DNA of 64,000 bases from positions 1-64,000 of the forward strand of contig DULR01000025.1 in NCBI GenBank assembly GCA_012840245.1. Reading direction: 5' to 3'. The stretch comes from Clostridiaceae bacterium. GTDB lineage: Bacteria > Bacillota > Clostridia > DSM-8532. The position numbers were made by a program, and so were the translations under genes. The stretch's first letter is position 1; each line of letters opens with the position of its first letter. Shown piece after piece: positions 242-15,364 of this stretch. The notes beneath the pieces are model-generated. The model was not told where the DNA came from. It was given only the letters and a program-made list of their open reading frames with translations, and did no database searches.

Positions 242-1216
242 TCAACGGCAATCATGCGGAAAATAACCATTCTGCGCTGCTTCACAGGGATCAGAAAAAT
301 ATACTATACTGCTACTGTCAAAGCGGTCATCGGTCAAGACAGTATTCAGATAATACTCACAGTCTTTACGGCAATAGTATAAAATACCCTGCCATAAATA
401 TCCCTCTACAGGCTCTTTTCTTATAACACGAGCTCCTCCGAGAGCATAATGGTTATAGCTCTTGCCCGATAAGACCGGAAACCCCTGGGCAAAGACAAGT
501 ATCCCTTCGTCAGTCAAGGCTCTTTTCCAGTCCGAGTCATCAATTGACGGAAACTTAAGGCTGACATAAAAGCTTTTTCCGGCTGCCCACTGGCTAAATT
601 CATTCATATAGCGCATGATCTCTTTCTGAACTGAATTTTTTACAGCAGCGATCCTCAGGTTTTCAAAGGTCTTCACATCATTGAAAAATGTTATTCTGTC
701 CTTGAGGTCCTGGTAATCTCCCTGTATAAAAGCCTTATCGATCTGGTCATAAACATATACCTCGTTTTCCAGAGTATAACGTACACAAAACCTTCCTGAC
801 AAATTTTCTCCGATATAATGATGAATGGGAAACCATACATGCCTGGTCTCAGTCTGCCCGTTGATGTTCTTATACGGATTCAGAGCATACAAATAAAAAC
901 CCTCATTTTCAAGGAAAACCAAAACCGGAACACATGAATCCACCCTGGCCTTCGAAGCAGGATCTATGTAGGAGCTGAATGAATAATAAAGGGAATCAAA
1001 AAAAGCATCAGCGGCCATCTGTCTGGCTGCGGAAGAGTCTTCATGTTTATGCCTGGAAAGAATAAAGGCTGCATCCTGGATCGCATTGTCGACAACATTA
1101 TCATAATAGGTCCGGAGCTTTTGATCTTCTATGGCCGCTTTTGCAGACTGGCTGCTAATAAAGAGGAAGGGCATGATTATTATCACAAAAATAACGGCAA
1201 GACTAGTAAGCCTCAT
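242..1216 (-). CDS. Hypothetical exported/membrane-anchored protein, Tad-like locus
   Basis: 324 aa ORF, N-terminal hydrophobic segment (MRLTSLAVIFVIIIMPFLFISSQ), overlaps the upstream gene by 14 nt. Confidence 0.8.
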   Translation of the reverse strand: MRLTSLAVIFVIIIMPFLFISSQSAKAAIEDQKLRTYYDNVVDNAIQDAAFILSRHKHEDSSAARQMAADAFFDSLYYSFSSYIDPASKARVDSCVPVLVFLENEGFYLYALNPYKNINGQTETRHVWFPIHHYIGENLSGRFCVRYTLENEVYVYDQIDKAFIQGDYQDLKDRITFFNDVKTFENLRIAAVKNSVQKEIMRYMNEFSQWAAGKSFYVSLKFPSIDDSDWKRALTDEGILVFAQGFPVLSGKSYNHYALGGARVIRKEPVEGYLWQGILYYCRKDCEYYLNTVLTDDRFDSSSIVYFSDPCEAAQNGYFPHDCR

Positions 1217-1754
1217 TTCTCACCATTCCTCCCGCCCTTACAAATATGCATGGCGTTTTTGTATTTGTGAATAGCATCATATCCCTTATGGCAACAGCCA
1301 TTGTTTTCCCTTTATTCTGTACTTCGACGAAGAAAAGGTCTCCCATGGACATTTTGTAGCGCCGTGATTCATCCAGTGCCGACACAGAATTCTGAGGAAA
1401 AAGAGTTTTCAGGATCTCCTCCTCGCCCTTGTTTACCCGGATCACTTCATATTCACCTGAAAAAACCATCGTGCTTCCTGATTGCCGGTATACCGGGTAT
1501 ACGGATCTTTTTATATGGGACATTCTTATCTCGTATGTGTTGCCTGTGGAGTTTATGCGGTCGACGAAATCAGTATACATGTTAGGTGTAATAAAACCCG
1601 TGTCTCTGCATATGTCTGTAAACCGGTTGCATTCCGCAAGGACTATATTGTAGGCTATATCGTCCTGCCTTTCCATCATGTTCAATAATGGCACAAGAAA
1701 CAACAGTATTGCGCCAATCAGGAAGGCAAGTATCTTCCAAAGAGGTCTGTCCAT
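1203..1754 (-). CDS. Hypothetical single-TM protein, Tad-like locus
   Basis: 183 aa, N-terminal TM (WKILAFLIGAILLFLVPLLNMM), same operon. Confidence 0.8.
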   Translation of the reverse strand: MDRPLWKILAFLIGAILLFLVPLLNMMERQDDIAYNIVLAECNRFTDICRDTGFITPNMYTDFVDRINSTGNTYEIRMSHIKRSVYPVYRQSGSTMVFSGEYEVIRVNKGEEEILKTLFPQNSVSALDESRRYKMSMGDLFFVEVQNKGKTMAVAIRDMMLFTNTKTPCIFVRAGGMVRNEAY

Positions 1755-1768
1755 AACCGCTCCTTAAA

Positions 1769-2191
1769 TTATCTTGATGAATAGACTATTCTTATAATAT
1801 TGCCCCGGAAATCGGCTTCATGGCTGACATGCCAATAACTTGCGGGATCTATATCGGTCAATCCCACAAACTCGGCTTTTTTGCCATCGACCCATATTTC
1901 AGGAGAGTTTTCCGGTTGAGTTGATGGGTCTTCCGAGTATAGGCTTTGAAGTTCCATGGCTTCCATTTTGGCTTTTTCCTCTATGATCCTGTGGATAACT
2001 TCGCAACCTGTTATACGGCACTCCTGTTCTTCCCCGGAAACTCCAACCATGATATCTTCTTCAAAAACTCTTCTGCTGCTGTTTATATAATCCACATGCC
2101 TGTTGTAGCTTGAGAAGAAAACTGCGAAGGCGATAGCGGCAAGCAAAGCGCTGGCCGATATGGAAAGGATCTTTTCAATATTGCTGTTCAT
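1769..2191 (-). CDS. Hypothetical single-TM protein, Tad-like locus
   Basis: 140 aa, N-terminal TM (ILSISASALLAAIAFAVFF), same operon. Confidence 0.8.
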   Translation of the reverse strand: MNSNIEKILSISASALLAAIAFAVFFSSYNRHVDYINSSRRVFEEDIMVGVSGEEQECRITGCEVIHRIIEEKAKMEAMELQSLYSEDPSTQPENSPEIWVDGKKAEFVGLTDIDPASYWHVSHEADFRGNIIRIVYSSR

Positions 2192-2193
2192 GG

Positions 2194-2775
2194 CTATTCG
2201 GTCTGGGCAAAAATAATGCCGCGGATCCTTAGGTTATCATCATATATCAGATGAGAGATGAACTTGCCGGAAGGGTTGATATACTTTGAGACAAGGTTTG
2301 GGTTCTCAGCATCTCTTTTTTCCGCATCGATCACTGTTTTGCTTAAGCTTGTAAGAAGGTTTCCTCCGCTGCCTGCACCCGACAATATGATGCATCGGTT
2401 TTCCACTTTGAGCGTGCCTGTCGTATTGGATATGTACCTGGTATAATTGGCTGAAAGTCCTGTATTAGCCGTTGGGTCAAGATTGACAGGATTTCCGTTG
2501 TTGTTTCCCAATGTTGCAACCATTATTATTACTTCTCCGCTTCTTCCCGAAAAGCTTCCCAATGCGGATAAAACGTCATCTCCCTTGACCTCTTTTCCGT
2601 CGTACATCCTGAATTCCTCTTCGATAAGATTTTGTGCTATCGATCCTACTTTATCATTGGCCAGATTGCTGACCTCCTTCATCCCTCCGAAAATACTGAG
2701 TCCAATTGTGACCACTGCTATAAAGAGCAGTATGGATACCCCCAGCCAAAGAGCCTTAGACAAATTTCCTTCCAT
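2194..2775 (-). CDS. Pseudopilin-like single-TM protein
   Basis: 193 aa, N-terminal TM (ALWLGVSILLFIAVVTIGLSIFGGMKEV) then a soluble domain; directly downstream of the TadB/C-like gene. Confidence 0.75.
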   Translation of the reverse strand: MEGNLSKALWLGVSILLFIAVVTIGLSIFGGMKEVSNLANDKVGSIAQNLIEEEFRMYDGKEVKGDDVLSALGSFSGRSGEVIIMVATLGNNNGNPVNLDPTANTGLSANYTRYISNTTGTLKVENRCIILSGAGSGGNLLTSLSKTVIDAEKRDAENPNLVSKYINPSGKFISHLIYDDNLRIRGIIFAQTE

Positions 2776-2802
2776 AACGATTACCTCCTGAAAGATTCAT
2801 CA

Positions 2803-4836
2803 TTATATTTGCATCAGTTGTCTGTAAAATGCAGAAATACTTTCCATACCTGAAACTATCATAGGTATTATCAGGTAAAGCACTATAAGTGCATATACAG
2901 GCATGAATCCGATCATATTGCCCAGATTCTTCTTTCTTTCCACGATCCTCTCATTGCTTTCCTTCCGAGTTTCACGACTGAAGCTCATTTCGCTCTCCAG
3001 TTCCTCAAAGGCTTTTGCCACATCCAGGTTCTCGCAGGCAAGCTGCAGGTTATCGATTATCAGCAACAACGGCGGAAATGCAACTTCTGTCTTTAGCTGT
3101 TCAAGTGCTTCATAAGGCCCTGAACTGAAATTTTGAATGCACTTTTGCAACGGGATTTTAAAATGCAGAGAGAATGCTTCCATCCATTCCAGGATCTCCT
3201 GAACATGGACACGGTTCATATGCATGAGCATCAATATGATGGTCTGGAATTGCGAAACCTCGTCTTCCATATCTATTTTTCTCGCGTTTGCCATGAACCT
3301 CAGGCTTATGATCGGAGCATTATATCCTAAGATGAATAATATCAGGCATATTAAAAGCTGCCACCACCAGAATATGTTTTCTGAAAGCTTTCGCATCTTT
3401 TCGCCGATCCTTTCGGCGGCAGCTTCAGCTTCCTGAGTACTGAGCGTCCCGTCTTTAATCAGCTCCTCAAGGATTGCCTCTTTGCCGCTGTTTTTGCCAA
3501 GCCTGAGGATTATTTCCCTGTCCATATCAGTTATAGCCTGGAGTTTTTCATACTCCTCATCGGACAGTCGTCCTCCCAGATACCCTTCAGGCATTTGAGG
3601 CCGGTACAGGATAACATGCCTTGTGTAACCTATAAGGCCGATAAACAGACATATACCGAATACAAATGACATCACTCCGGCTATAAGCCTGCGGGTATAA
3701 AGAGTTTTCAGATCAAGAGGCGCAAGGGCATTCTTTATCAGTTCAAGAAGATAATTTTTTCTTGCCGTATAGCCTTTCGGAATCAATCTGTCGACTATTA
3801 GGTGCATAAACTTATCATATAGCCTCTGTTCAAGGTTTTTTTTGATATAGCCGGCATTGAACGGCCTGTCAAAACGCTGAAGCTTCCGTAATGTCATGTA
3901 TGATATGATGGATGCCATGATTGTAGCTATGCCCAGTATTATCCCTATCTTGCTGGAATAGAAGCGCTCGAGTGGCATAAAGCTTTGTGAAGCCCAATTA
4001 CGCAAAGGCTTCAGAAAAAACATCGGCATGAGCGATACTGTGTTGAGGCTCTTCAATGCATATTTCAGTTTTTCACGTTTATAAATCTCGGCCTTTATTT
4101 CACACGCAAGATAGGCAATGCAGCGTATAAAAACCGAATCATTCTCTACGAGGGTATCACCATACTCTTTAGTGATGTAGATAATACCCGCAAGCATTTT
4201 GAAATACTTATTCGGGGCTGTTTCATAATATTTTTCCAGCTCTTCCTCAGCATCCTTCGAAGTCAGGATATCATTAATCCTCTCGGCCTGCATGTACGCT
4301 TCAAAAGTCCCTCGTCCGTTAAGCAGATTGCATGCTTCAAGATTGGCATCTTCCACAGATTTCTGTTCATAGTACTTATGCCTTAAAAGCTCCAGATATC
4401 TTACCAGTTGTTTTAACAGCCTGTTTTGGAGATTATTAATAAAAAGCTCGATTGCAGTATCCCCTGTAAAAACAAGCAAAACCATAAGCAATACCATCAT
4501 GAACAGGTCTTTTACAATCAACCGGAAAATCATGATGATACTCAGACTGAAAAATACTGTGGTAAGAACAAGCAGTACTGCTCTTTTCCGTATGGTTTTC
4601 TCGTCGGATACGGTATTGATTTCCAGTCTTTTCCTGATGCTAAACATAAGCTGTCTTAAAAGAGGAATGGAAGATATCCTGTTGTAAAGCATCAAAAAAA
4701 CTGCAAAATTTCCGGCTTTGCTTCTGTTAAGCTGCCTTACACCTCTTTTTTGCCTTTTGGCCATTTCCATGTTTACAGCTATCAGCACCAGGGCAAGAAC
4801 AAGGCATGCTATACCAATAATGGAGAATTTGCTCAT
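2803..4836 (-). CDS. Type II secretion F-like / TadB-TadC-like membrane protein (apparent fusion)
   Basis: 677 aa with two blocks of TM segments separated by cytoplasmic domains; 4-nt ATGA overlap with the upstream TadA-like ATPase. Confidence 0.75.
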   Translation of the reverse strand: MSKFSIIGIACLVLALVLIAVNMEMAKRQKRGVRQLNRSKAGNFAVFLMLYNRISSIPLLRQLMFSIRKRLEINTVSDEKTIRKRAVLLVLTTVFFSLSIIMIFRLIVKDLFMMVLLMVLLVFTGDTAIELFINNLQNRLLKQLVRYLELLRHKYYEQKSVEDANLEACNLLNGRGTFEAYMQAERINDILTSKDAEEELEKYYETAPNKYFKMLAGIIYITKEYGDTLVENDSVFIRCIAYLACEIKAEIYKREKLKYALKSLNTVSLMPMFFLKPLRNWASQSFMPLERFYSSKIGIILGIATIMASIISYMTLRKLQRFDRPFNAGYIKKNLEQRLYDKFMHLIVDRLIPKGYTARKNYLLELIKNALAPLDLKTLYTRRLIAGVMSFVFGICLFIGLIGYTRHVILYRPQMPEGYLGGRLSDEEYEKLQAITDMDREIILRLGKNSGKEAILEELIKDGTLSTQEAEAAAERIGEKMRKLSENIFWWWQLLICLILFILGYNAPIISLRFMANARKIDMEDEVSQFQTIILMLMHMNRVHVQEILEWMEAFSLHFKIPLQKCIQNFSSGPYEALEQLKTEVAFPPLLLIIDNLQLACENLDVAKAFEELESEMSFSRETRKESNERIVERKKNLGNMIGFMPVYALIVLYLIIPMIVSGMESISAFYRQLMQI

Positions 4837-6770
4837 GCTGTGATCACTTCCCCGGCATTCAGGTGTTTTTCACAGTAAGCTTCAAAATCCCGTGCATCCT
4901 TTTCGGTCATTGCTTTCTTCATCCTTCTTCTCCTGTCAGTCGTTATAGGATTTGAAACAATATAACGGCCATCCTTGAATTCGATTATATTGCGGGTCTC
5001 AAAAAGTCTGCTGCTGCTCATTTTCTTAAAATACTCGGCAGCAGTATCCATGAATGAACCTGCTTTATGGGCCAGATCTGCCTCTTCCCGGAAATCCTGA
5101 GGCAGCGGCAGGTCAGGGATCTCAACGATTTCGGTGATCCTCTCAATATACCTTTTCCCCTGATAATCCCTGGCCAGATGGATATCAAAGTCCAAAACCG
5201 AGACGACCTGCTGTTCTGCTATTTTTTCATTATTGAACATCTCGCATTTCAAGAGTGAATTTCTCAGGGAATAAACCAGATCCTTCGTAGTTTTTGCATG
5301 ATGAGTAAACAACGTAAACAGAGAGGCCACCTGAGACATCTGGATCATCCATGCAGCTACCGGGTCAGTCGCGACCTCTCCCAATATATTCACGCATCCA
5401 TCGGTCTTTTTCTGGATATCAAGTCCCTGCTGCCCGGATATATTCTCAGTCTCCCTGAAAGACAGGATATTCCTTCCGGGGTAAAGCCTCCTGAGATTGA
5501 GCTCAAAAGCCATCTCCTGGATCCTGAGAGTCAGTGAGGCATAGATATGTCTGATCATGGCCATTAACAGAGTTGTTTTCCCTGAGCCCTGCTGACCTGT
5601 TACTGCCGTTATCATGCCGCCCTTGACAATGTACTTTATAAGTTCGATGGGCAAATGAGCGTTTTCATCCTGAATAAGCATCTCGAGGGTTACATTCTTT
5701 ATAAAAAACTTACGGACAAAGAATGCCCAGGACTCTGAAAAAGGTGGCCTTACAACCAGAACACGGCTTCCGTCCTTCATTTCATTGACCCGGTAACCGG
5801 TCGACTCGGAAAGCTGTCCTCCCCGATTGTATCTGTATATTATCTGACATACCCTTTTCAGCTCGCTTTCGGAATCAAAGCCTAAAAAATCCAGTTTGAT
5901 GGACTTCCCCTTGTAAAAAATCCAGACACATTCGTAATTCCTTTTTACCCTTCCGGCTTTCGATCCATTAAAGGTGCCTTCGGGATTATATAAAGGATTT
6001 ATGCCACCTAACTGATTGCCGGTGAAATCCGAAGGAAATAATTCAGCTGTTACTCCCGATACTCCCGCCGATACCCCATCAATGTTCATATCCCTTATTT
6101 CATCTATAACTCCAAGCCCTTTATATTTCTCATAAACAGCCTGAGTGATTATCTCAAGCCGGTCATCTGTGTCCGGCACTAAATTCATACTGTCATAGAT
6201 TATTTCAATATCCTTTTCGGTTATCTCGAATGCAAGCTCACCATCTTCGGTCTCCCTGAGCCTGTCCAGCCCATAGGTATCGATAAGGTGCGACAGGGCA
6301 TCGAAGCCATGTTCTTTTTTCAGCATGTGAAGAATGATCGCGAACTTATCTCTGACCGACAATAAGCAGGTGTTGTTGAAAGGTATTATGGTGTTGATCT
6401 TGTCAGCAGGTATATATGAATACAAAATGTCATATATAAATGCTTTTACAAACTGTTTATCCTCTATCGAGCCATGCATGCATACCTTCAAAGCCTTTTT
6501 GAGCTCTGCCCTCTTATTGGCCTGCTTTTTGAATTCGACTTCGTTAAGTCCAAGCTCGAACAAATTGGTTCTGGTAATTTCATTTATGGTATCCTTCACA
6601 TATTCGACAAGGGCTGGTATCGTAAACAGCTGCGGGTCTGAAGCCTCCGCAACTTCTCTTTGATATCTTGTGGATGTAAAGAAAAAATATAAGGCAACAC
6701 CCAGACCCAGCAAAATCAATATGATCAAAACCAGATTAAATAGTTCAGGCAATTCTGCCGCTCCCCTCAA
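4833..6770 (-). CDS. Type II/IV secretion ATPase, CpaF/TadA-like
   Basis: 645 aa, Walker A TGQQGSGKTTLLMAMI; downstream GEVATDPVAAWMIQMSQVA...LFTHHAKTTKDLVYSLRN typical of VirB11/CpaF ATPases. Confidence 0.9.
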   Translation of the reverse strand: MRGAAELPELFNLVLIILILLGLGVALYFFFTSTRYQREVAEASDPQLFTIPALVEYVKDTINEITRTNLFELGLNEVEFKKQANKRAELKKALKVCMHGSIEDKQFVKAFIYDILYSYIPADKINTIIPFNNTCLLSVRDKFAIILHMLKKEHGFDALSHLIDTYGLDRLRETEDGELAFEITEKDIEIIYDSMNLVPDTDDRLEIITQAVYEKYKGLGVIDEIRDMNIDGVSAGVSGVTAELFPSDFTGNQLGGINPLYNPEGTFNGSKAGRVKRNYECVWIFYKGKSIKLDFLGFDSESELKRVCQIIYRYNRGGQLSESTGYRVNEMKDGSRVLVVRPPFSESWAFFVRKFFIKNVTLEMLIQDENAHLPIELIKYIVKGGMITAVTGQQGSGKTTLLMAMIRHIYASLTLRIQEMAFELNLRRLYPGRNILSFRETENISGQQGLDIQKKTDGCVNILGEVATDPVAAWMIQMSQVASLFTLFTHHAKTTKDLVYSLRNSLLKCEMFNNEKIAEQQVVSVLDFDIHLARDYQGKRYIERITEIVEIPDLPLPQDFREEADLAHKAGSFMDTAAEYFKKMSSSRLFETRNIIEFKDGRYIVSNPITTDRRRRMKKAMTEKDARDFEAYCEKHLNAGEVITA

Positions 6771-7554
6771 TAATAAAATTACACAGTCTGTCCAGCGATT
6801 CTATCAAGGTCTTGTCAGTACAAGCCTTTGCGTTTTTATAAAAAGCTATATATTCAAACACCCGACCAGTATTCAAAGCCTCCATAAAATTAGTACTGTT
6901 TGGAAACTCAAACATCGAAGCCTTATTTAAACCATACTTTCTGGCTATATAACCGCGTGATATCAGTCCGCTTTTTTCATAGCGCGATATCACGTATACC
7001 GACCTCTTTTGCTTCAGGAAAGGATATTTGCTCTGGAATTTCTTTAAGTCCTCCAGAAGGAAAAGGTTCTGATTGATGCAAAAAACTATGATATCGGAGC
7101 TTTCCAGTATTTTGAGACTGTTGTTCTCATTCAGACCGCTGTGCGTGTCCATTAACACCAGATCATAAAACTCCCTGGCGCATTTGATTATATTTATGAG
7201 CACATCAAGCTCTCCGGCGGTAGTTTTCTCTCTTTTGGCAGTGCCTGCAAGTATGTCCAGACGATGATCCTTAAGGAGGGAATGTGTATAATCGGCAACC
7301 ATATCAGGCTTGAGTCTTCCGTTTTTATAAAGCCTTACGAGTGCATCCAGGCCTTGATTGGTTATATTATGGACCGATTTTTCAACATCTGTGGGCTGCC
7401 TGAGCAAATAACCTTCCAATGCGCTTCTTTCAATATGGTTATGGGTAACGAGTACTTTATATGCTGTTTTTTGCGCCAGCGACGAAGCAAGAGCTGCTGT
7501 TGTAGCGCTGGTTGCCGCTTGTCCGTGCATATTGGACCACACTGATATCTGCAT
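6745..7554 (-). CDS. MinD/ParA-like protein (CpaE/TadZ-like), atypical P-loop
   Basis: 269 aa, N-terminus MQISVWSNMHGQAATSATTAALASSLA in place of KGGxGKTT; YDLVLMDTHSGLNENN resembles the second ParA motif. Confidence 0.75.
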   Translation of the reverse strand: MQISVWSNMHGQAATSATTAALASSLAQKTAYKVLVTHNHIERSALEGYLLRQPTDVEKSVHNITNQGLDALVRLYKNGRLKPDMVADYTHSLLKDHRLDILAGTAKREKTTAGELDVLINIIKCAREFYDLVLMDTHSGLNENNSLKILESSDIIVFCINQNLFLLEDLKKFQSKYPFLKQKRSVYVISRYEKSGLISRGYIARKYGLNKASMFEFPNSTNFMEALNTGRVFEYIAFYKNAKACTDKTLIESLDRLCNFIIEGSGRIA

Positions 7555-7557
7555 TTT

Positions 7558-8202
7558 TCACACCCTTTCAACTTCCTTAAACATAGCTTTTACTTCCTTC
7601 CTGTCCAATGAGAAAATATCCTGAATAATTGCTCTAAGAGCCGATTTCAGAGCACGTGAAAGTGACTTAAGCGGAAGCTTGTTGATAAACTGGCTTTCAA
7701 TCATTACATTGTGGTTGGCTTCTTCAAAATATATGGCATGTGTGTGAGTGATTTTAGTAAAGCTGGGCAGGCTCCGTTCCCAGAATAAATCCAGATATCT
7801 CACATTGATCCGGCAGCACTCCATAACGTTAAGATAAATCAAAATCAGGCTGAGCGATGGCTGGAACCATGTGTATTCGCTTGCCAGTTTTGTGCATTCT
7901 TCAAGCATTCTTCTTGTAGGTTCGGATACGGCAACTACGGCAAATCCTTCGGGTATGCTGATAAGTTCGTCCACATCCAGAAAATTATATGCATCGATTA
8001 TGATCTTGCTCAGCGGATCCTCATCGTTTTCACATTTCACTATTTCAATACCGCAATAATCATGGATCCCCGTTTCATTTTCAAATAAGTATGGACTTTT
8101 GGAAATCAGCACTACCTTATTGCGGCATGACATGATTTTGGCCAGGCATAGAAGCAAAAACTTTTTTTCTTCGGTACTTTTCCCAAGAAATACTACGTTC
8201 AT
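7558..8202 (-). CDS. Hypothetical protein, possible degenerate ParA-like fold
   Basis: 214 aa, MNVVFLGKSTEEKKFLLLCLAKIMSCRNKVVLIS; position within the Tad-like operon. Confidence 0.7.
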   Translation of the reverse strand: MNVVFLGKSTEEKKFLLLCLAKIMSCRNKVVLISKSPYLFENETGIHDYCGIEIVKCENDEDPLSKIIIDAYNFLDVDELISIPEGFAVVAVSEPTRRMLEECTKLASEYTWFQPSLSLILIYLNVMECCRINVRYLDLFWERSLPSFTKITHTHAIYFEEANHNVMIESQFINKLPLKSLSRALKSALRAIIQDIFSLDRKEVKAMFKEVERV

Positions 8203-8211
8203 TGCATCCTC

Positions 8212-9147
8212 CTATAATCTGTCTTCAAGTCTTGTACTGACCTCAGCATCAATTTCTTCGTCAACAACAGGAGTTAAAGCGGCAGAGTCTGCAGTACCAC
8301 TGAATACTTTGTTTCGGCCTGCACTTTGATAGTCTTCGTTTATTTGCTTTTCAAACATTGCTCTGTTTCGGATCTCCAGCTCTGTTACGGCCTTCTCTAC
8401 AATATTGGGATTTTGCAGAATAAGGCTGAGTACTTCCGGATTTGACGGATAGGTCCTGACTGCTTCGCTCTGGATTTCAGGAGCCACGTAAGGTACAGCA
8501 TACAGCGTCGTCCCTTCGACCAGACTTGCATCGACAATAGCACTTGCCATTCTGAGGATTTCTTCCTCATTGGAATGAAACCAGATTATGTTCCTGGGAT
8601 TATCAGCCGTTTGTCTCTGCAGGTCTTTGACCTGCTTTTTGGATAAAACGATGTAGTCCAGACCATTAGGGAACATGATCCTCACATCGACGTATTCCAT
8701 GGGTTCGAGCTTCTGCGGAATATTTATTGATGTATATTCTACCAGTCTCATGTCGTCAGGATAATCCTTTTCATCATACAGCATGGAACTCGTCAAGGCC
8801 GTATTTTTTGATATGTCACACCTTACAATCTTTCCTGTGACAGAAGAAGGCTCGATGATCGCATCTGCAGGGAAGATATCCTCACTTATTTCAGCCGGCA
8901 TCAAATCCTGATCGGTCAACACTTCTCCGGCCTTTTTATCAGAGGTCAGAATATATATGAGCTTTACGGGATGATTCTGTAAATATTCCTCAACTGCAAT
9001 CTCTTTTATTTCCTGTATCTTTTTCTTATTGATCTCATTTATATTTCTCTGATAAAAGAAAAAAGCTGTACCTGAAGCGATAACCGAGATGATCACTCCC
9101 AGTAAAAAGCCAATCAAAGTTCTGTAACGCTGCGGACGAATTATCAT
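8212..9147 (-). CDS. SAF-domain / CpaB (RcpC)-like protein
   Basis: 311 aa, N-terminal TM then KKAGEVLTDQDLMPAEISEDIFPADAIIEPSSVTGKIVRCDISKNTALTSSML (SAF/CpaB pattern). Confidence 0.75.
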   Translation of the reverse strand: MIIRPQRYRTLIGFLLGVIISVIASGTAFFFYQRNINEINKKKIQEIKEIAVEEYLQNHPVKLIYILTSDKKAGEVLTDQDLMPAEISEDIFPADAIIEPSSVTGKIVRCDISKNTALTSSMLYDEKDYPDDMRLVEYTSINIPQKLEPMEYVDVRIMFPNGLDYIVLSKKQVKDLQRQTADNPRNIIWFHSNEEEILRMASAIVDASLVEGTTLYAVPYVAPEIQSEAVRTYPSNPEVLSLILQNPNIVEKAVTELEIRNRAMFEKQINEDYQSAGRNKVFSGTADSAALTPVVDEEIDAEVSTRLEDRL

Positions 9148-9159
9148 TTTTACTCCCCT

Positions 9160-10599
9160 CTAATTATGTCTTGCCTCTGCAATAGAACAGATTTCCTTAA
9201 AAAAACGTTCAGTGTTTTTACGTTCTTCTTCGGTAAAATAATAAGGATTCTTCGGAAGTGAATAGGAGACAAGATGCTTTATATTTTTATTGAGCATCTG
9301 TTTGTCAAAATCGTCAGATGTATCTGCTACAAAGATCCATTCATCTTTTGTCTGTGATTTGATGCCCCCGTCATATTCAAGGAATATGGAATACTTCCAT
9401 GGAACCCTGGGACAAAGGACAAGCTTTATATCAGTACGGTTAAGTTCCCTTAACTTATGTTCATTATTTAGATGCCCGAGATCCAGGATGACGATATCAA
9501 CACCCTTCCTGGAAATCTCGCTGCAATCTGACATACCGGGATAGAACACTATTTCCCCTGCTTCAAAGCTGTTTTCTCTTCTGATTTTAAGCTCGCCCAG
9601 ATCATCAAGGATTTCTTCCAGCCTGCTGAAATCACCGCTGTTGTTAAGTTCTATCAATACGGTTTTTTTGCCTGCTTTGGCCAAATACCTGCCTAAAGCC
9701 AGACATAATGTCGTTGCACCACTTCCGGGCAAATACGAGGTTATACCAATGACGCCCCTGAACATTGAAGCTTGAGTTTTTATGTTTCTCTTAAAAATCA
9801 ATCTCTTTGACCCAGCAATATTATTCAGGGCCTTCAATGCAGTCTGAGCATCCTGGAATCTCTTTGCCGGTTCGGGCTCTGTAAGGCCAAGTATGAATTT
9901 TGAAAATCCTTTTGAAATACCTGAATTTTTTAATAATACTCTGATACTTCCCTCACCTGTTTTCAGAGGATGTATCCCTGTAGCCAAATGCACAAGAGTC
10001 ATGCCTAGGCTAAAAAGGTCCGTCCTCTGGTCGCTTCGGCCGTTTCCGTATTGCTCAGGAGCTGCATATCCCTGAGTGCCTATATAAATGGTGTCTTCAC
10101 TTTTTCCTTCTCTGTGCAGTCTGGCCGTACCAAAATCTACGAGTCTCAATCTGCCCGTATCATCCACGATCAGATTGGATGGTTTTAAATCTCTGTAAAT
10201 TACCGGCGGATTTCTGCCGTGCAGGTAGTCCAATGCGTCAAGCAGTTCAAAAGTCCATTTTATCAGCACTTTTTCGGTTATCTTACCTTCTTTTTGCAGT
10301 ACATCTACAAGGTTTGATCCGGGGATATAATCCATTACGATAAAGTAATTATCATTGTCCCCAAAAAGGTCTGCTATCCTTGGAAGCATTGGGTGACTAA
10401 GACTTTTAAGTATATCGACCTCTTCCAACTGGTATGAAATCCATGGGCTGTCTTTGGACAGCACTTTAAGGGCCCAATAATTATTAAGTACTATATTTTC
10501 GACAAGAAATACCCGTGCTGTGCCACCCTGTCCCAAGCTTCCGATAATTTTATATTTATTATCTAGTATTTCCCCTATATTCATAATCAATCTTCTCAT
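9160..10599 (-). CDS. Ser/Thr protein kinase fused to a ParA/MinD-like P-loop-derived domain
   Basis: Kinase motifs GQGGTARV, ALKVL, YRDLKPSN, DFGTA, APEQ; C-terminal GVIGITSYLPGSGATTLCLALGRYLAKAGKKTVLIELN. Probable start is the internal Met at 10584 (MNIGEILDNKYK). Confidence 0.9.
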   Translation of the reverse strand: MRRLIMNIGEILDNKYKIIGSLGQGGTARVFLVENIVLNNYWALKVLSKDSPWISYQLEEVDILKSLSHPMLPRIADLFGDNDNYFIVMDYIPGSNLVDVLQKEGKITEKVLIKWTFELLDALDYLHGRNPPVIYRDLKPSNLIVDDTGRLRLVDFGTARLHREGKSEDTIYIGTQGYAAPEQYGNGRSDQRTDLFSLGMTLVHLATGIHPLKTGEGSIRVLLKNSGISKGFSKFILGLTEPEPAKRFQDAQTALKALNNIAGSKRLIFKRNIKTQASMFRGVIGITSYLPGSGATTLCLALGRYLAKAGKKTVLIELNNSGDFSRLEEILDDLGELKIRRENSFEAGEIVFYPGMSDCSEISRKGVDIVILDLGHLNNEHKLRELNRTDIKLVLCPRVPWKYSIFLEYDGGIKSQTKDEWIFVADTSDDFDKQMLNKNIKHLVSYSLPKNPYYFTEEERKNTERFFKEICSIAEARHN

Positions 10600-10620
10600 A
10601 GCACAAATTAACTGTTATAT

Positions 10621-10649
10621 ATTGTAACAACAAACAATTTCATAATCAA
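10621..10649 (-). promoter_or_regulatory. Candidate sigma-A promoter for kinase/Tad-like operon
   Basis: Minus strand TTGATT-17 nt-TACAAT (-35 at 10644-10649, -10 at 10621-10626), just upstream of the kinase start. Confidence 0.55.
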
Positions 10650-10693
10650 TAGGATAAATTTAAATTTTGTAATTTTTTGTTGAATAAGGGGAT

Positions 10694-13600
10694 TTAATGT
10701 GTTCCGGTACCAATATAATCGTCAGAGGCACTCTTGTCAGCATAATATACGATTACATCGCCGGTCACAAGCTGCCAGCCTCCCTGGCTCAGGTCATAGC
10801 CTTCCAATGCCCAGCCATCTCCTGTTTTTCCTGTATAACCAAGGCTGGGGTTGTCGAAATCGTCATCATTGATCACAGTGATATCCTTGAAATTGACAAT
10901 CACATACCCGTCTTTCAGAAAAACAGGGGAGTTTCGTGTCAGATTCCTTTCCTTTGATAAATCTGTTCCTTTTGGGACAACCAGCAGATCGGCCGGCAGA
11001 TGATATTCCCCGTACCATTTCTGTACGGATGCAAATGCTTTATACCTGTTTACATTCCCGGGCACACCTTGCACAGGCCCTATAAAGCTACGTATGGGCT
11101 CACTCAGAAGAAGCTTTGTATATTTGGATATAACCACTCCGTTCTGAGACACCTTAGGGAAAGCTTCCTTCCATTTCTCAAGTGTATAGGTTCCTACGCC
11201 GCCCCTTAAGCGGTAAATGGCCTCAGCTGTATTTATAAACTCGGAAAGATCTATCCCTCTGTATTTGAAATCCAGTCTGATCTTCTGTGTTTCGGTATCC
11301 TCAAAGCTCCCTATTTTGATCAGCGGGTTTTTTGGTGTGGAATAATACAGATCTACTTCCTGCCTGTTCTTCCCCTCTCTGTCCACAAAAGCAAACGTAG
11401 GCCTTATCTGGACAAAGTCCAAATTATCATAATAATTGCCTACCGTCTTGATTTCAAACTTAACAGTATATCCGAGTTTTACTGCTTTTTGCTGATAACC
11501 TTTCATATCGTTTTTTCCTGGCATTACCGGCATTATATACTTTCTTGCGCTGTCCGGCTCACCGTTTATGTTCCGTGGCCCCGTATAAAAGACCTTTCCG
11601 GTGCGTTCATGGCTGTTTGAGCTCTTCCTGAAGAAAGGCTCCCATGATATATCTTCTATATCTGTTATGGCAAAATCGTATATCCTCCCCGATACTTCCA
11701 CGGCACCCCTGGCGATGGCTGCTGTATTTGAAGGATTTAAGTTAGCCCTGTTCTCGCTTTTCTTTGAGGTATCGTTCCTGGCTATGCTCCTTGCCTCAAT
11801 ATTGTACAGGCCTTCATCGACCCACACCGGTGTATAAAAGATGATCCGGGTTGTCGTATTGGATATTCCAAGGCTGCTAAGAGAATACCATGTGTTGGCT
11901 TTTAAGTATGTACCTGTCATATCGGTCCCGAGGTATGCGTCGAAAGACAGACGTATCTCTCTGTCTTTTATATACTTTGTAAAGTCCCTGTTCCCATAGC
12001 CTTTGATATTTCTGTGAGATCCGCTGTTTATGATATCCACCGTGAAAGTACGGTCTAGTATCAATGCGCTGGCGGTATTTGAAGGATTTATCTTCTGATT
12101 GTGGATATCATCGCTTGAAATGCTTATGTTGACACAAACAGGAGTATGTACAGCAATTGGGTTTATATTACCAATCTCGAAAGTCAGGATCTCCGGATTT
12201 TCGGGATTATATGAATAAACCTTCTTATAGGTTATTTCTCCGCTGCTATCATAAGTTCTGTTTTTTGTTTGATCCGGGATGATTATGTTTGAGGTGTAAA
12301 GAACATCCCGGCTTGTTTTGGGAGGAGTCCGATCAGAAGCAAGTCCACTGTAAGGGTCGAGAATAACCTTACCATTTATGATGAGTTTGTCATTTATTAC
12401 GGATGGTGAATCAACGACGGCTTCTGCGGCAGCTTTTACTTCTTCCTCGGTGACAGCGTCAGAGTTTATGGTTTTATCAGAGCATCTCTGCACATGGTAG
12501 GAATATCTGTCATTAGGATCATGGGTGACCTCAAATGACGGAGTCGTATATCCGCCTTTTGGAGTAAGGATCACCTTTTTCCCGGGCAGGGCTTCATTTT
12601 CGACAGTTGCGCTTTCTATTTCATAGAGTTCAAAGGATGTGATCTCAATATATGAGTACGGACGGGAAACATATATCTCAGATGTTTTTGGATTCCCTTC
12701 CTCGTCCTTGTGATTCACGGTAACCTTGGTGGTTGCATATCCACTTACCGTATTGGTTTTAAGACTGTACAGGAAGCTTTCTGAGATGATCTGCGCATAA
12801 ACGGCCTCTCCGGCAGGGATGCCTTTTGTTACGTCAAAAGCCTCACTATCCCTCGGATCGGCCTGGATAAAGGCATTTTCGTTTATAACAGAATGGCCGA
12901 CAGATCCTTCCTGTTCTGATTCTATAACCGGCTCTATAACGGGCTCAGGTTCCGGCTCTTCCTTGACATATGGAGTTACCACCCCAACGCCCATGGAGTT
13001 GTATATGATCCCACCTTCGGGATTAAGCTGTTCTTTTATTGCTGCTCTCTGAGCCCGTCTCACAGTTATGTCAGGTGAATCGTAAATCACTTTATATGTA
13101 TCTGCTTTTGCAATATTGCTCTGAAACAGAGGATATTTGGTGTCTGAATAGGCTTTGGCGTAATCTCTGGAGTTTTTGCCGTACATGGATATGGCAGCTT
13201 CATTTTCGATCAAAAACTGAGAGTTGGAGGTAAAGACAAAAACAGGTGTGATCCAGTCTATGAGATCTTTTCCGTCCGATGTCACTACTTCGTTTCTGTG
13301 AAAAGCCTCCTCCCAGCGGATAAGATCTCTCAGAGTCATAGCCATACAGACACCATCCACGATGGGATATATTACAGGTTCGAAGAAGACTTTATATATA
13401 CCAGGTTCTGACCTGAATTCACGTTCTGAAAAGATACCATTCTTGAAATCATCAACTGTTATTTCCGCTCCGCAAAGTCTGGCTATATCGGGAATGTTCC
13501 GATATCCCTTTTCATTGGTCACAGGATCGATCGGGCCTTCAAACCAGTTATCCCACTGGGCTTTTGTACCTGTCCAGACATCGGGCATAGCATTAACTAT

Positions 13601-14014
13601 CCTCTGGATCTCAGGGCTGTCACCGTAGCCTGCCCATTGATAATCTGTATCTATTGATTCAATAGGGCTAAATTTACTTCCAAAGATATTATTGCCTTTA
13701 TTCATATACCAAAAAACAGAATGGACAGTATATCTTTCAACTTTATACCAAGGCCCTGTTTTTGAAATGTCAGTAGTATTACCAACTTGAATGACACCTT
13801 CCCCGGAGGCGAATGAGTCTTCATCAGGAGCCCAGTAAAAAGAAATCCTCATTCCGGAATAATTGATATTGTATTTCCACTTATCATCACCTTTCCCCGA
13901 ATATCCATATGAAGGAAGACTATCATTGTTACCAGCAAAAGAACTTTGTGGAAGAAGTAAAATAAGTAAGAAAAATACTATAATTACAATAAAAATTTTT
14001 CTATCTTTACACAT
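10694..14014 (-). CDS. Large secreted protein (1106 aa), possibly DUF5704-like
   Basis: Signal peptide-like N-terminus (KIFIVIIVFFLLILLLPQSSFAG), long beta-rich sequence with related NPSNTA-containing segments. Confidence 0.75.
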   Translation of the reverse strand: MCKDRKIFIVIIVFFLLILLLPQSSFAGNNDSLPSYGYSGKGDDKWKYNINYSGMRISFYWAPDEDSFASGEGVIQVGNTTDISKTGPWYKVERYTVHSVFWYMNKGNNIFGSKFSPIESIDTDYQWAGYGDSPEIQRIVNAMPDVWTGTKAQWDNWFEGPIDPVTNEKGYRNIPDIARLCGAEITVDDFKNGIFSEREFRSEPGIYKVFFEPVIYPIVDGVCMAMTLRDLIRWEEAFHRNEVVTSDGKDLIDWITPVFVFTSNSQFLIENEAAISMYGKNSRDYAKAYSDTKYPLFQSNIAKADTYKVIYDSPDITVRRAQRAAIKEQLNPEGGIIYNSMGVGVVTPYVKEEPEPEPVIEPVIESEQEGSVGHSVINENAFIQADPRDSEAFDVTKGIPAGEAVYAQIISESFLYSLKTNTVSGYATTKVTVNHKDEEGNPKTSEIYVSRPYSYIEITSFELYEIESATVENEALPGKKVILTPKGGYTTPSFEVTHDPNDRYSYHVQRCSDKTINSDAVTEEEVKAAAEAVVDSPSVINDKLIINGKVILDPYSGLASDRTPPKTSRDVLYTSNIIIPDQTKNRTYDSSGEITYKKVYSYNPENPEILTFEIGNINPIAVHTPVCVNISISSDDIHNQKINPSNTASALILDRTFTVDIINSGSHRNIKGYGNRDFTKYIKDREIRLSFDAYLGTDMTGTYLKANTWYSLSSLGISNTTTRIIFYTPVWVDEGLYNIEARSIARNDTSKKSENRANLNPSNTAAIARGAVEVSGRIYDFAITDIEDISWEPFFRKSSNSHERTGKVFYTGPRNINGEPDSARKYIMPVMPGKNDMKGYQQKAVKLGYTVKFEIKTVGNYYDNLDFVQIRPTFAFVDREGKNRQEVDLYYSTPKNPLIKIGSFEDTETQKIRLDFKYRGIDLSEFINTAEAIYRLRGGVGTYTLEKWKEAFPKVSQNGVVISKYTKLLLSEPIRSFIGPVQGVPGNVNRYKAFASVQKWYGEYHLPADLLVVPKGTDLSKERNLTRNSPVFLKDGYVIVNFKDITVINDDDFDNPSLGYTGKTGDGWALEGYDLSQGGWQLVTGDVIVYYADKSASDDYIGTGTH

Positions 14015-14026
14015 AAAGAATCATCC

Positions 14027-15184
14027 TTATCTAATCGGTCCTGTCCAAACCCATTGTCCTCTAGAATACCTAAGCCAAGGTCCATAAGTAGTCCCTTCCT
14101 CAGGATGACCAAGCTCTCTTAATGCATCATTCCGCATCCTTTCAGCTATTGCATGCCACTCTCTTATATAATGCCCTTCCCCTGTCTTCTCGCATACAAG
14201 ATAAGGCTGTCCCATAAAGGGCTCTTCCGTACCTAAATCACCTGCCTTAATTGGAGTTCCTCCACGGTCTATCCTTCCAAGCTCTGTCGCACAACCCTGC
14301 CCTTCACCCAATACTCCTGAGGGGCCGATTTTTAGTACCACACTGGTCCCGTCAGGCTTGATAAAGGTATCTCCCTCTATGGCCATAGGCCTGTAAGGGT
14401 CGTCATATCTCAGCACCATAGGCTCCCTTTGGGCTTCATTCTTTGGTATGGTGACCTTTGCTCTTTCTCTCTTATCCAGAAACCTTATGATAAATGCTGC
14501 CGCCTGAGCTCTTGTTGCCACATCATCGGCTCCAAAACGCCCGTCAGTATAGCCCGATATTATCCCTGAACCATATACGATCAAAACATCTGCCTTCTGG
14601 CTTTCAGAGATTTTATCAAAGTCTTTGATGGACGCTGAAAGCGGCCTGCATTCGGCTTCAGTTAAGGGATCTTTTTCAAACTTTTTATAAGCCTTGACTA
14701 TTATTCTTGCCATTTCACCTCTGGTTATGGGATCTGACAAGTTTGACAGGACGTATTCACCAGGCTCAAGTATCCCTATTTCCTCAGCTTTTTTAACATC
14801 CAGGGCAGCCCAATGGCTGAATGAAGGAGTTAATCCCTTAAGGCCTTCGGTTCCGTACATGGCGCGGATAAACAACTTTATGAACATTGCCCTGGTAACG
14901 GTATCAAATGGGTCCAGAGTGTTATTCAAAGAACCGTCCAGAGCGCTCAAGCCCACCAGCTTTACCATAACACTCATATACCAGTCGCCTTTTTTTACAT
15001 CGGTATATTTTTTAAGAACAGCATTTTCAAGGCTGCCAAACATTGCGTCATCAATATCTTCTATCGATCTGATGTTTTTCCGTAAGTTTTCGATTTCATC
15101 ATTGGCAGCAGCCATGGTCGCTGAAAACAGAGGAACCGAGAGGATTATAAATATCAAAAGAAAGGAAATAACACTCTTTTTCAT
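14027..15184 (-). CDS. S-layer homology (SLH) domain protein
   Basis: 385 aa with signal peptide and SLH-type repeats (DTVTRAMFIKLFIRAMYG; DPITRGEMARIIVKAYK; GIISGYTDGRFGADDVATRAQAAAFIIRFLD). Confidence 0.85.
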   Translation of the reverse strand: MKKSVISFLLIFIILSVPLFSATMAAANDEIENLRKNIRSIEDIDDAMFGSLENAVLKKYTDVKKGDWYMSVMVKLVGLSALDGSLNNTLDPFDTVTRAMFIKLFIRAMYGTEGLKGLTPSFSHWAALDVKKAEEIGILEPGEYVLSNLSDPITRGEMARIIVKAYKKFEKDPLTEAECRPLSASIKDFDKISESQKADVLIVYGSGIISGYTDGRFGADDVATRAQAAAFIIRFLDKRERAKVTIPKNEAQREPMVLRYDDPYRPMAIEGDTFIKPDGTSVVLKIGPSGVLGEGQGCATELGRIDRGGTPIKAGDLGTEEPFMGQPYLVCEKTGEGHYIREWHAIAERMRNDALRELGHPEEGTTYGPWLRYSRGQWVWTGPIR

Positions 15185-15215: not shown

Positions 15216-15270
15216 GTAATAAGATTCTGAAATGAGTATCTTTATGTGTTTTATGTCAGAATCTTATTAC
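15216..15270. promoter_or_regulatory. Perfect 15-bp inverted repeat upstream of the SLH gene
   Basis: GTAATAAGATTCTGA (15216-15230) - 25 nt - TCAGAATCTTATTAC (15256-15270); right arm overlaps a possible minus-strand -10 TAAGAT (-35 TTGATA at 15283-15288). Confidence 0.7.
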
Positions 15271-15332
15271 ATTGGCATTAATTATCAAGAGTATAGCATT
15301 TTATGATATATTGTGTCAATATTAACCAGTTG

Positions 15333-15364
15333 ATAAATAAAATAAGCGGGCTTTTATAACCCGC
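15333..15364 (-). terminator. Candidate Rho-independent terminator after hisE
   Basis: Minus strand GCGGG-TTATAAAAG-CCCGC followed by TTATTTTATTT. Confidence 0.6.

Follow-up and report, generated by a model that had tools for sequence, protein, structure and literature searches.

A Tad-like gene cassette of Gram-positive bacteria and its association with the giant secreted protein family DUF5704

Introduction

Does a machine of the type IV filament type need canonical prepilin processing in order to work, and are dedicated contact appendages carried by conjugative plasmids of Gram-positive bacteria? Both questions are raised by a locus at positions 242-15184 of the window, by which we mean the whole analysed stretch of 64,000 nucleotides at the start of contig C103 (DULR01000025.1) in the 2.9-Mb genome of a Clostridiaceae bacterium, whose nearest relatives are Clostridiaceae metagenome-assembled genomes (MAGs) and whose closest named species is Thermoclostridium caenicola. 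The locus contains twelve open reading frames (ORFs; g1-g12), all on the minus strand at the positions given by the initial annotation, which was made from the sequence alone, and it comprises two modules, a conserved cassette (g3-g12) and a separate pair (g1-g2). It belongs with the Tad/type IV filament systems as a previously unrecognised variant, resembling Tad in its motor and platform and strongly associated with a giant surface protein. As the contig starts at window base 1, the locus is legible only as far as g12. The genes are as follows (SLH, S-layer homology; TM, transmembrane helix):

14027-15184, minus strand: g1, secreted SLH-domain protein, putative envelope-anchor partner of DUF5704, 385 aa (SLH 2e-15; N-terminal signal)
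10694-14014, minus strand: g2, giant secreted DUF5704 protein, 1106 aa (PF18964, 3e-20)
9160-10599, minus strand: g3, fusion of a Ser/Thr kinase and a degenerate ParA-like domain, 479 aa (PF00069, 5e-45)
8212-9147, minus strand: g4, CpaB-like protein with one TM and a SAF domain, 311 aa (SAF 4e-6; TIGR03177 partial)
7558-8202, minus strand: g5, conserved cytoplasmic protein, 214 aa (no family; position conserved)
6745-7554, minus strand: g6, CpaE/TadZ-like ParA-family protein with degenerate Walker A, 269 aa (hhalign)
4833-6770, minus strand: g7, CpaF-like ATPase with an extra N-terminal TM and a long N-domain, 645 aa (profile comparison)
2803-4836, minus strand: g8, TadB/TadC-like platform protein in a single chain, 677 aa (hhalign)
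2194-2775, minus strand: g9, pilin-like candidate major subunit, 193 aa (structure model and signature)
1769-2191, minus strand: g10, small single-TM protein, candidate minor subunit, 140 aa (position conserved)
1203-1754, minus strand: g11, single-TM protein, candidate minor subunit, 183 aa (present in nearly all complete cassettes)
242-1216, minus strand: g12, single-TM protein, candidate minor or tip subunit, 324 aa (present in all complete cassettes)

Results

Conserved order of the cassette and position of its ATPase

The 80 named loci compared included 62 with enough flanking sequence for g4-g5-g6-g7-g8-g9-g11-g12 to be followed on one strand, and the g4-g12 order was kept in all 62, 61 of them by script together with locus L113, which keeps the cassette order and has the g1-g2 pair placed between g9 and g10. 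This order was observed in Thermoclostridium relatives, Paenibacillaceae, Tumebacillus and other Clostridia; the cassette occurs across many Gram-positive bacteria, with its genes mostly annotated as 'hypothetical', and in the family of the window it is near-universal, chromosomal and adjoining housekeeping genes. In the window, g6/g7 overlap by 26 bp, g7/g8 by 4 bp and g11/g12 by 14 bp, while 12 bp separate g1 from g2 and 94 bp separate g2 from g3. The initial annotation had described one collinear, often overlapping gene set; the overlaps are real and the description is right for g3-g12, whereas for g1-g2, whose position varies while the cassette order is kept, it is right only locally.

The ATPases of the cassette form one clade with full support (100/100), apart from the canonical Tad ATPases, which include three from the genome of the window itself, and five of the seven sampled intermediate loci (kinase-SAF-ParA-CpaF-TadB-TadC loci of other Clostridia) group nearest the cassette; some branches are long, so the deep joins of this tree are uncertain. 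Three further Tad-type loci lie in that genome (L073, L074 and L075 on contigs C52, C48 and C60, respectively); the C60 locus resembles a mobile element and carries three short Flp-type pilins that are similar to one another.

Machine genes

Above curated cut-offs, family matches were obtained only for g1 (SLH), g2 (DUF5704), g3 (kinase) and g4 (SAF), and in the Pfam and NCBIfam scans no curated family exceeded its cut-off for g5, g8, g9, g10, g11 or g12; g6, g7 and g8 were placed by profile-profile comparison. The kinase/pseudo-ParA fusion, the SAF/CpaB-like protein and the CpaF ATPase named by the initial annotation were all borne out. The g3 product exhibits a Hanks-type kinase with YRDLKPSN and DFG and a weak ParA-like tail in which the P-loop lysine is replaced (PGSGATT); the gene is common but not universal, being missing from many Bacilli loci. 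The g4 product aligns with a CpaB of the same genome at 97% (hhalign), and g7 aligns with solved CpaF structures in the Protein Data Bank (PDB) at 2e-12, its motifs GxQGxGKTT, VNILGEVA and THHA being invariant, whereas its similarity to T2SSE and TadA is weak, with Pfam and TIGR03819 scores under curated cut-offs.

Two further claims stood in part. Of the supposed two ParA-like proteins, g6 matches the CpaE ATPase domain at 94% (hhalign), its Walker A (GQAATSATT) lacking the lysine and being degenerate in relatives as well, while g5 is not supported as a second one, reaching 36% at best against CpaE. The proposed TadB/C-like fusion holds for the N-half of g8, which matches TadB at 96% (hhalign); its C-half aligns at 96% with what is a separate second gene in the intermediate loci and did not match canonical TadC, with unrelated membrane proteins as controls for both halves remaining below 1%. 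Used as queries against PDB sequences, g6, g2 and g9 gave nothing significant.

The small single-TM proteins

The four small single-TM proteins of the initial annotation, g9, g10, g11 and g12, each possess one TM, at the N-terminus. The N-terminal signature of g9, given as MxNxxKAL or MxxNxxKAL, is near-invariant (128 of 132 homologues, against 8 of 2538 other ORFs), and its conserved alanine at position 8 may mark an unusual cleavage site. The AlphaFold model of g9 (mean pLDDT 84.6) shows a helix of 54 residues (3-56) followed by an alpha/beta head. Four to five copies of g9 were observed in Clostridia MAGs that have the cassette without DUF5704, and few copies in Bacilli. The g12 product is enlarged to 545-870 aa in some Clostridia, and one g11 homologue shows sub-threshold similarity to DUF4320. 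One of the g11 homologues, in a 1.3-Mb genome, has grown to 1262 aa (L215, 1775-5563), which suggests a tip-like elaboration.

The g1-g2 pair

The SLH protein and the 1106-aa secreted protein of the initial annotation were both recovered by family matches, the DUF5704 (PF18964) match of g2 scoring 73 bits against a gathering score of 25. A Sec-type signal peptide is predicted for g2, whose N-terminal ~380 aa are variable and whose C-terminal ~720 aa are conserved to the last residues; in the DUF5704 alignment (A2), A385 is the first invariant residue and the terminus is mostly GTH or a similar triplet. The AlphaFold model is beta-rich from ~380, including its confident part, and the fold search returned loose beta-sandwich matches only, weak ones including adhesins. 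Every DUF5704 gene with a legible upstream side is preceded, mostly by 0-84 bp, by the gene of a secreted SLH or Cu_amine_oxidN1 (copper-amine-oxidase-N) protein. A common C-terminal domain of these anchor proteins was considered and rejected: their C-terminal parts are unrelated, and what they have in common is confined to the anchor role of the N-terminal part.

An upstream position of the pair is confined to the window and its closest relative; in the latter the DUF5704 3' end stands directly before g3. About 39 Bacilli loci have at least 4.6 kb of downstream flank, and by hand count the pair follows the cassette in 27 of them and lies elsewhere in others; it stands inside the cassette in a Vallitaleaceae MAG and is unlinked to the cassette in many genomes. 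More distant DUF5704 relatives of ~1980 aa occur beside or near SLH genes (G461, G096), and a relative of 2023 aa closes the cassette in G069.

Near-identical DUF5704 copies were also observed (L183/L184 in G020, L203-L208, L216-L219 and L222), with identity ending a few bases past the stop codon; the G020 copies are 95% identical across ~3.5 kb together with the SLH gene, and in several MAGs shared DUF5704 3' ends sit at contig ends. This looks like concerted evolution of duplicates, which could explain the sharp boundary, and a mobile element made of the 3' end pieces need not be invoked.

Co-occurrence of cassette and DUF5704

Among 151 Paenibacillaceae genomes, 81 contain the cassette and 77 contain DUF5704, all 77 lying among the 81 (Fisher 9e-39, a value that overstates the evidence, since genomes are not independent samples), and none of the 70 cassette-free genomes has DUF5704. 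Three of the four cassette genomes without DUF5704 have a distant relative of it. The two states are concordant, both being found within at least five genera, so the pattern is not that of one ancestral event. In a 300-genome sample of the phylum, cassette and DUF5704 were found in the same three genomes, and all 12 genomes without DUF5704 beside the cassette have it elsewhere. A Pfam search had suggested that DUF5704 is absent from most members of the family of the window; this was revised when a profile search recovered the gene, whole or in fragments, in many further members, where assembly had often split it. Breakage of assemblies at DUF5704 genes is one reason why detection in this family is incomplete.

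The initial annotation had proposed checking whether the SLH and 1106-aa genes always travel with the ATPase. As a rule of adjacency this fails, since the distance varies up to complete unlinking and a clade of small-genome Clostridia carries the cassette without DUF5704, whereas co-occurrence at the level of the genome stands. The evidence supports a functional relation of g1-g2 with the cassette, though they lie outside the conserved operon.

Cassette-bearing plasmids

Searching 72,556 plasmids gave 24 with the cassette, 22 with DUF5704 and 21 with both; the cassette plasmids are of 100-540 kb, among them pBpOF4-01, pTHECO01 and plasmids from Lysinibacillus sphaericus, most of the genes again being annotated as 'hypothetical'. 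In the non-pathogen Alkalihalophilus pseudofirmus OF4 the cassette corresponds to BPOF4_RS20240-RS20285, the SLH gene to BPOF4_RS21390 and the DUF5704 gene to BPOF4_RS20295. Relaxase and type IV coupling protein (T4CP) genes adjoin the cassette in pSSII-1 and pTHECO01. Thirteen of the 15 plasmid records (H79-H93) with a closely related VirB4 (at least 55% identity) carry the cassette, and among the matches listed at 30% identity or less (the next best having 30%) none does, while 11 of the 24 cassette plasmids are without the close VirB4. VirB4, VirD4 and relaxase are absent from the cassette itself. That the cassette is the conjugation channel was rejected, as pSSII-1 has separate type IV secretion system (T4SS) genes. 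A pilus assembly ATPase on pBsph has been listed among possible transfer genes in a study whose own matings gave no transfer of pBsph or pBsph-2 (PMC4363355), and elsewhere pBsph and pBsph-like plasmids, p1593 among the latter, are described as conjugative (PMC13239906). A mating-pair role of the plasmid-borne cassette may be a reasonable reading, with common plasmid ancestry as the alternative.

On pBpOF4-01 and pTHECO01 a diguanylate cyclase gene directly follows DUF5704 (L226, 23930-24934; L227, 24947-26737), hinting at cyclic di-GMP control.

Control sites and locus borders

The following sites were found around the two modules:

15290-15319, minus strand: strong promoter-like site for g1-g2, TTGACA-18-TATACT with extended -10 (11 of 12 matches)
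15346-15364, minus strand: terminator-like hairpin between the locus and the hisE-like gene upstream
10621-10649, minus strand: promoter-like site in the g2-g3 gap, weaker than the g1 site and similar in the closest relative
15216-15270, no strand assigned: perfect 15-bp inverted repeat with a 25-base loop in the g1 5' leader (promoter to start codon), read from the sequence

The site in the g2-g3 gap possibly gives the cassette its own start. An Rfam scan of the window, the inverted repeat included, matched no family. At the contig start, an open frame on the plus strand (1-426) overlaps the end of g12; only its first residues resemble, weakly, the helix-turn-helix of an ISL3 transposase, and it is possibly a transposase fragment at an assembly break.

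Discussion

We consider it somewhat probable that the locus encodes a monoderm, Tad-derived machine of the type IV filament type with DUF5704 as its surface partner, likely serving adhesion or cell-cell contact. The membrane-tethered CpaF-like ATPase g7 and the TadB/C-like platform g8 would drive assembly, with the CpaE-like g6 positioning motor and platform and the kinase/ParA-like g3 regulating them. The g9 protein would build a filament or short pseudopilus in which g10-g12 serve as minor or tip subunits, and the CpaB-like g4 would form a conduit through the wall. The g2 protein, exported by Sec, would then be displayed on or pushed out by the structure through its conserved C-terminal region, exposing its variable N-terminal third, and the g1 anchor would help to hold it at the surface. 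A physical link of g1 and g2 to the machine, and a role of DUF5704 as adhesin or substrate, are proposed from the co-occurrence.

Several observations weigh against this proposal. The prepilin motif is essentially absent from g9-g12 (2 of 148 g9, 1 of 33 g10, 8 of 72 g11 and 17 of 72 g12 homologues), the displayed positives lying mostly within over-long start extensions while two TadE-type controls from the same genome were positive; no cassette small protein matched Flp pilin or TadE/TadF above the Pfam cut-off; and a prepilin peptidase was never found as a cassette member. The initial picture of a Tad-like machine without secretin, its own prepilin peptidase or pilins with the usual motif is supported. 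A peptidase is encoded elsewhere in 28 of 34 cassette genomes and is not detectable in 6 of 34, all MAGs, which may hint at non-canonical processing. Moreover, the fold search with the g9 model gave no significant match in the PDB or a viral library, so g9 is pilin-like in outline only, and the fold matches of g2 have query-normalised TM scores below 0.15. All 11 small-genome Clostridia MAGs with the cassette are without DUF5704, with g9 multiplied and g12 enlarged, so the machine does not require DUF5704; conversely, G115, outside the family of the window in a 148-genome sample, has DUF5704 while its ATPase matches at the canonical level only.

A type II secretion-like piston, in which g9-g12 form a short pseudopilus within the wall and move DUF5704 across the thick wall or S-layer as a secreted product, would suit the co-occurrence of a single dedicated giant exoprotein family with the machine, the C-terminus conserved to its last residues, which could be a recognition signal, and the few g9 copies in Bacilli. 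We regard it as unlikely, because the four to five g9 copies in lineages without DUF5704 are hard to explain if its transport were the sole task, and because Sec-exported proteins in monoderms usually need no such device for wall passage. An apparatus for mating-pair formation or aggregation that supports conjugation, with the type IV pili of IncI-type plasmids as its parallel, draws on the 24 cassette plasmids, the close VirB4 lineage (13 of 15), the relaxase and T4CP genes of pSSII-1 and pTHECO01, the pilus ATPase listed among possible transfer genes (PMC4363355) and conjugative p1593 (PMC13239906). Against it stand the near-universal chromosomal cassette beside housekeeping genes in the family of the window, the 11 plasmids without close VirB4, the failed transfer of pBsph and pBsph-2 in the matings of PMC4363355, and a VirB4 link that shared plasmid ancestry alone could explain; we judge it quite unlikely.

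Least probable, and in our judgement very unlikely, is a divergent but otherwise ordinary Tad pilus beside unrelated genes, with a DUF5704 link that would reflect shared ancestry only. Several core parts do have Tad counterparts and the genome has three further Tad-type loci, yet the concordant states inside at least five genera, the co-occurrence of unlinked genes, the distinct ATPase clade and the lack of a recognisable Flp pilin, TadE/F or prepilin motif in the cassette argue otherwise. The favoured filament machine with DUF5704 may also be stated more boldly, as a type IV filament branch of Gram-positives that uses pilin-like subunits outside the usual prepilin route, displays DUF5704 as a giant anchored adhesin and, on megaplasmids, serves as contact apparatus of one conjugation lineage; this wider form is tentative and rather doubtful.

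Through this association a giant protein family so far without assignment is linked to a machine, and about ten mostly unannotated gene families are tied together in hundreds of candidate loci across Bacillota. The literature search, with preprints outside its scope, found no paper on DUF5704 and no described system of this kind, and the association suggests an undescribed surface appendage, also on some large plasmids.

Comparison with known systems

With the Tad (Flp) pilus the cassette shares CpaF-, TadB-, CpaB- and CpaE-type components in one locus, and it is without secretin, as is the monoderm Tad system (PMC6668835). It differs in that its CpaF has an added TM and a long N-domain, TadB/C form one chain, kinase, degenerate ParA-like parts and the DUF5704/anchor partner are present, and Flp, TadE and TadF matches, prepilin motif and TadV are lacking; since the search for a Tad pilin found none, the locus is not classed as a Tad pilus. 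The intermediate loci (L066-L069, L071) exhibit the same order of first genes, most with the kinase, whereas their TadB and TadC are separate genes, their small proteins are strongly diverged and no DUF5704 was seen alongside. By functional analogy, the type IV pili of IncI-type plasmids (TP114, PMC9045228) likewise combine a plasmid-borne filament machine and a surface adhesin beside a conjugation T4SS. Those pili are Gram-negative with PilS/PilV pilins, whereas the cassette is Tad-derived and also belongs to the chromosomal core in some families. The bindosome system of Sulfolobus, an archaeal type IV pilus-like machine for surface proteins with class III signal peptides, shares with the cassette a weak similarity of its assembly ATPase BasE to g7 (NF053672, 5.7e-5).

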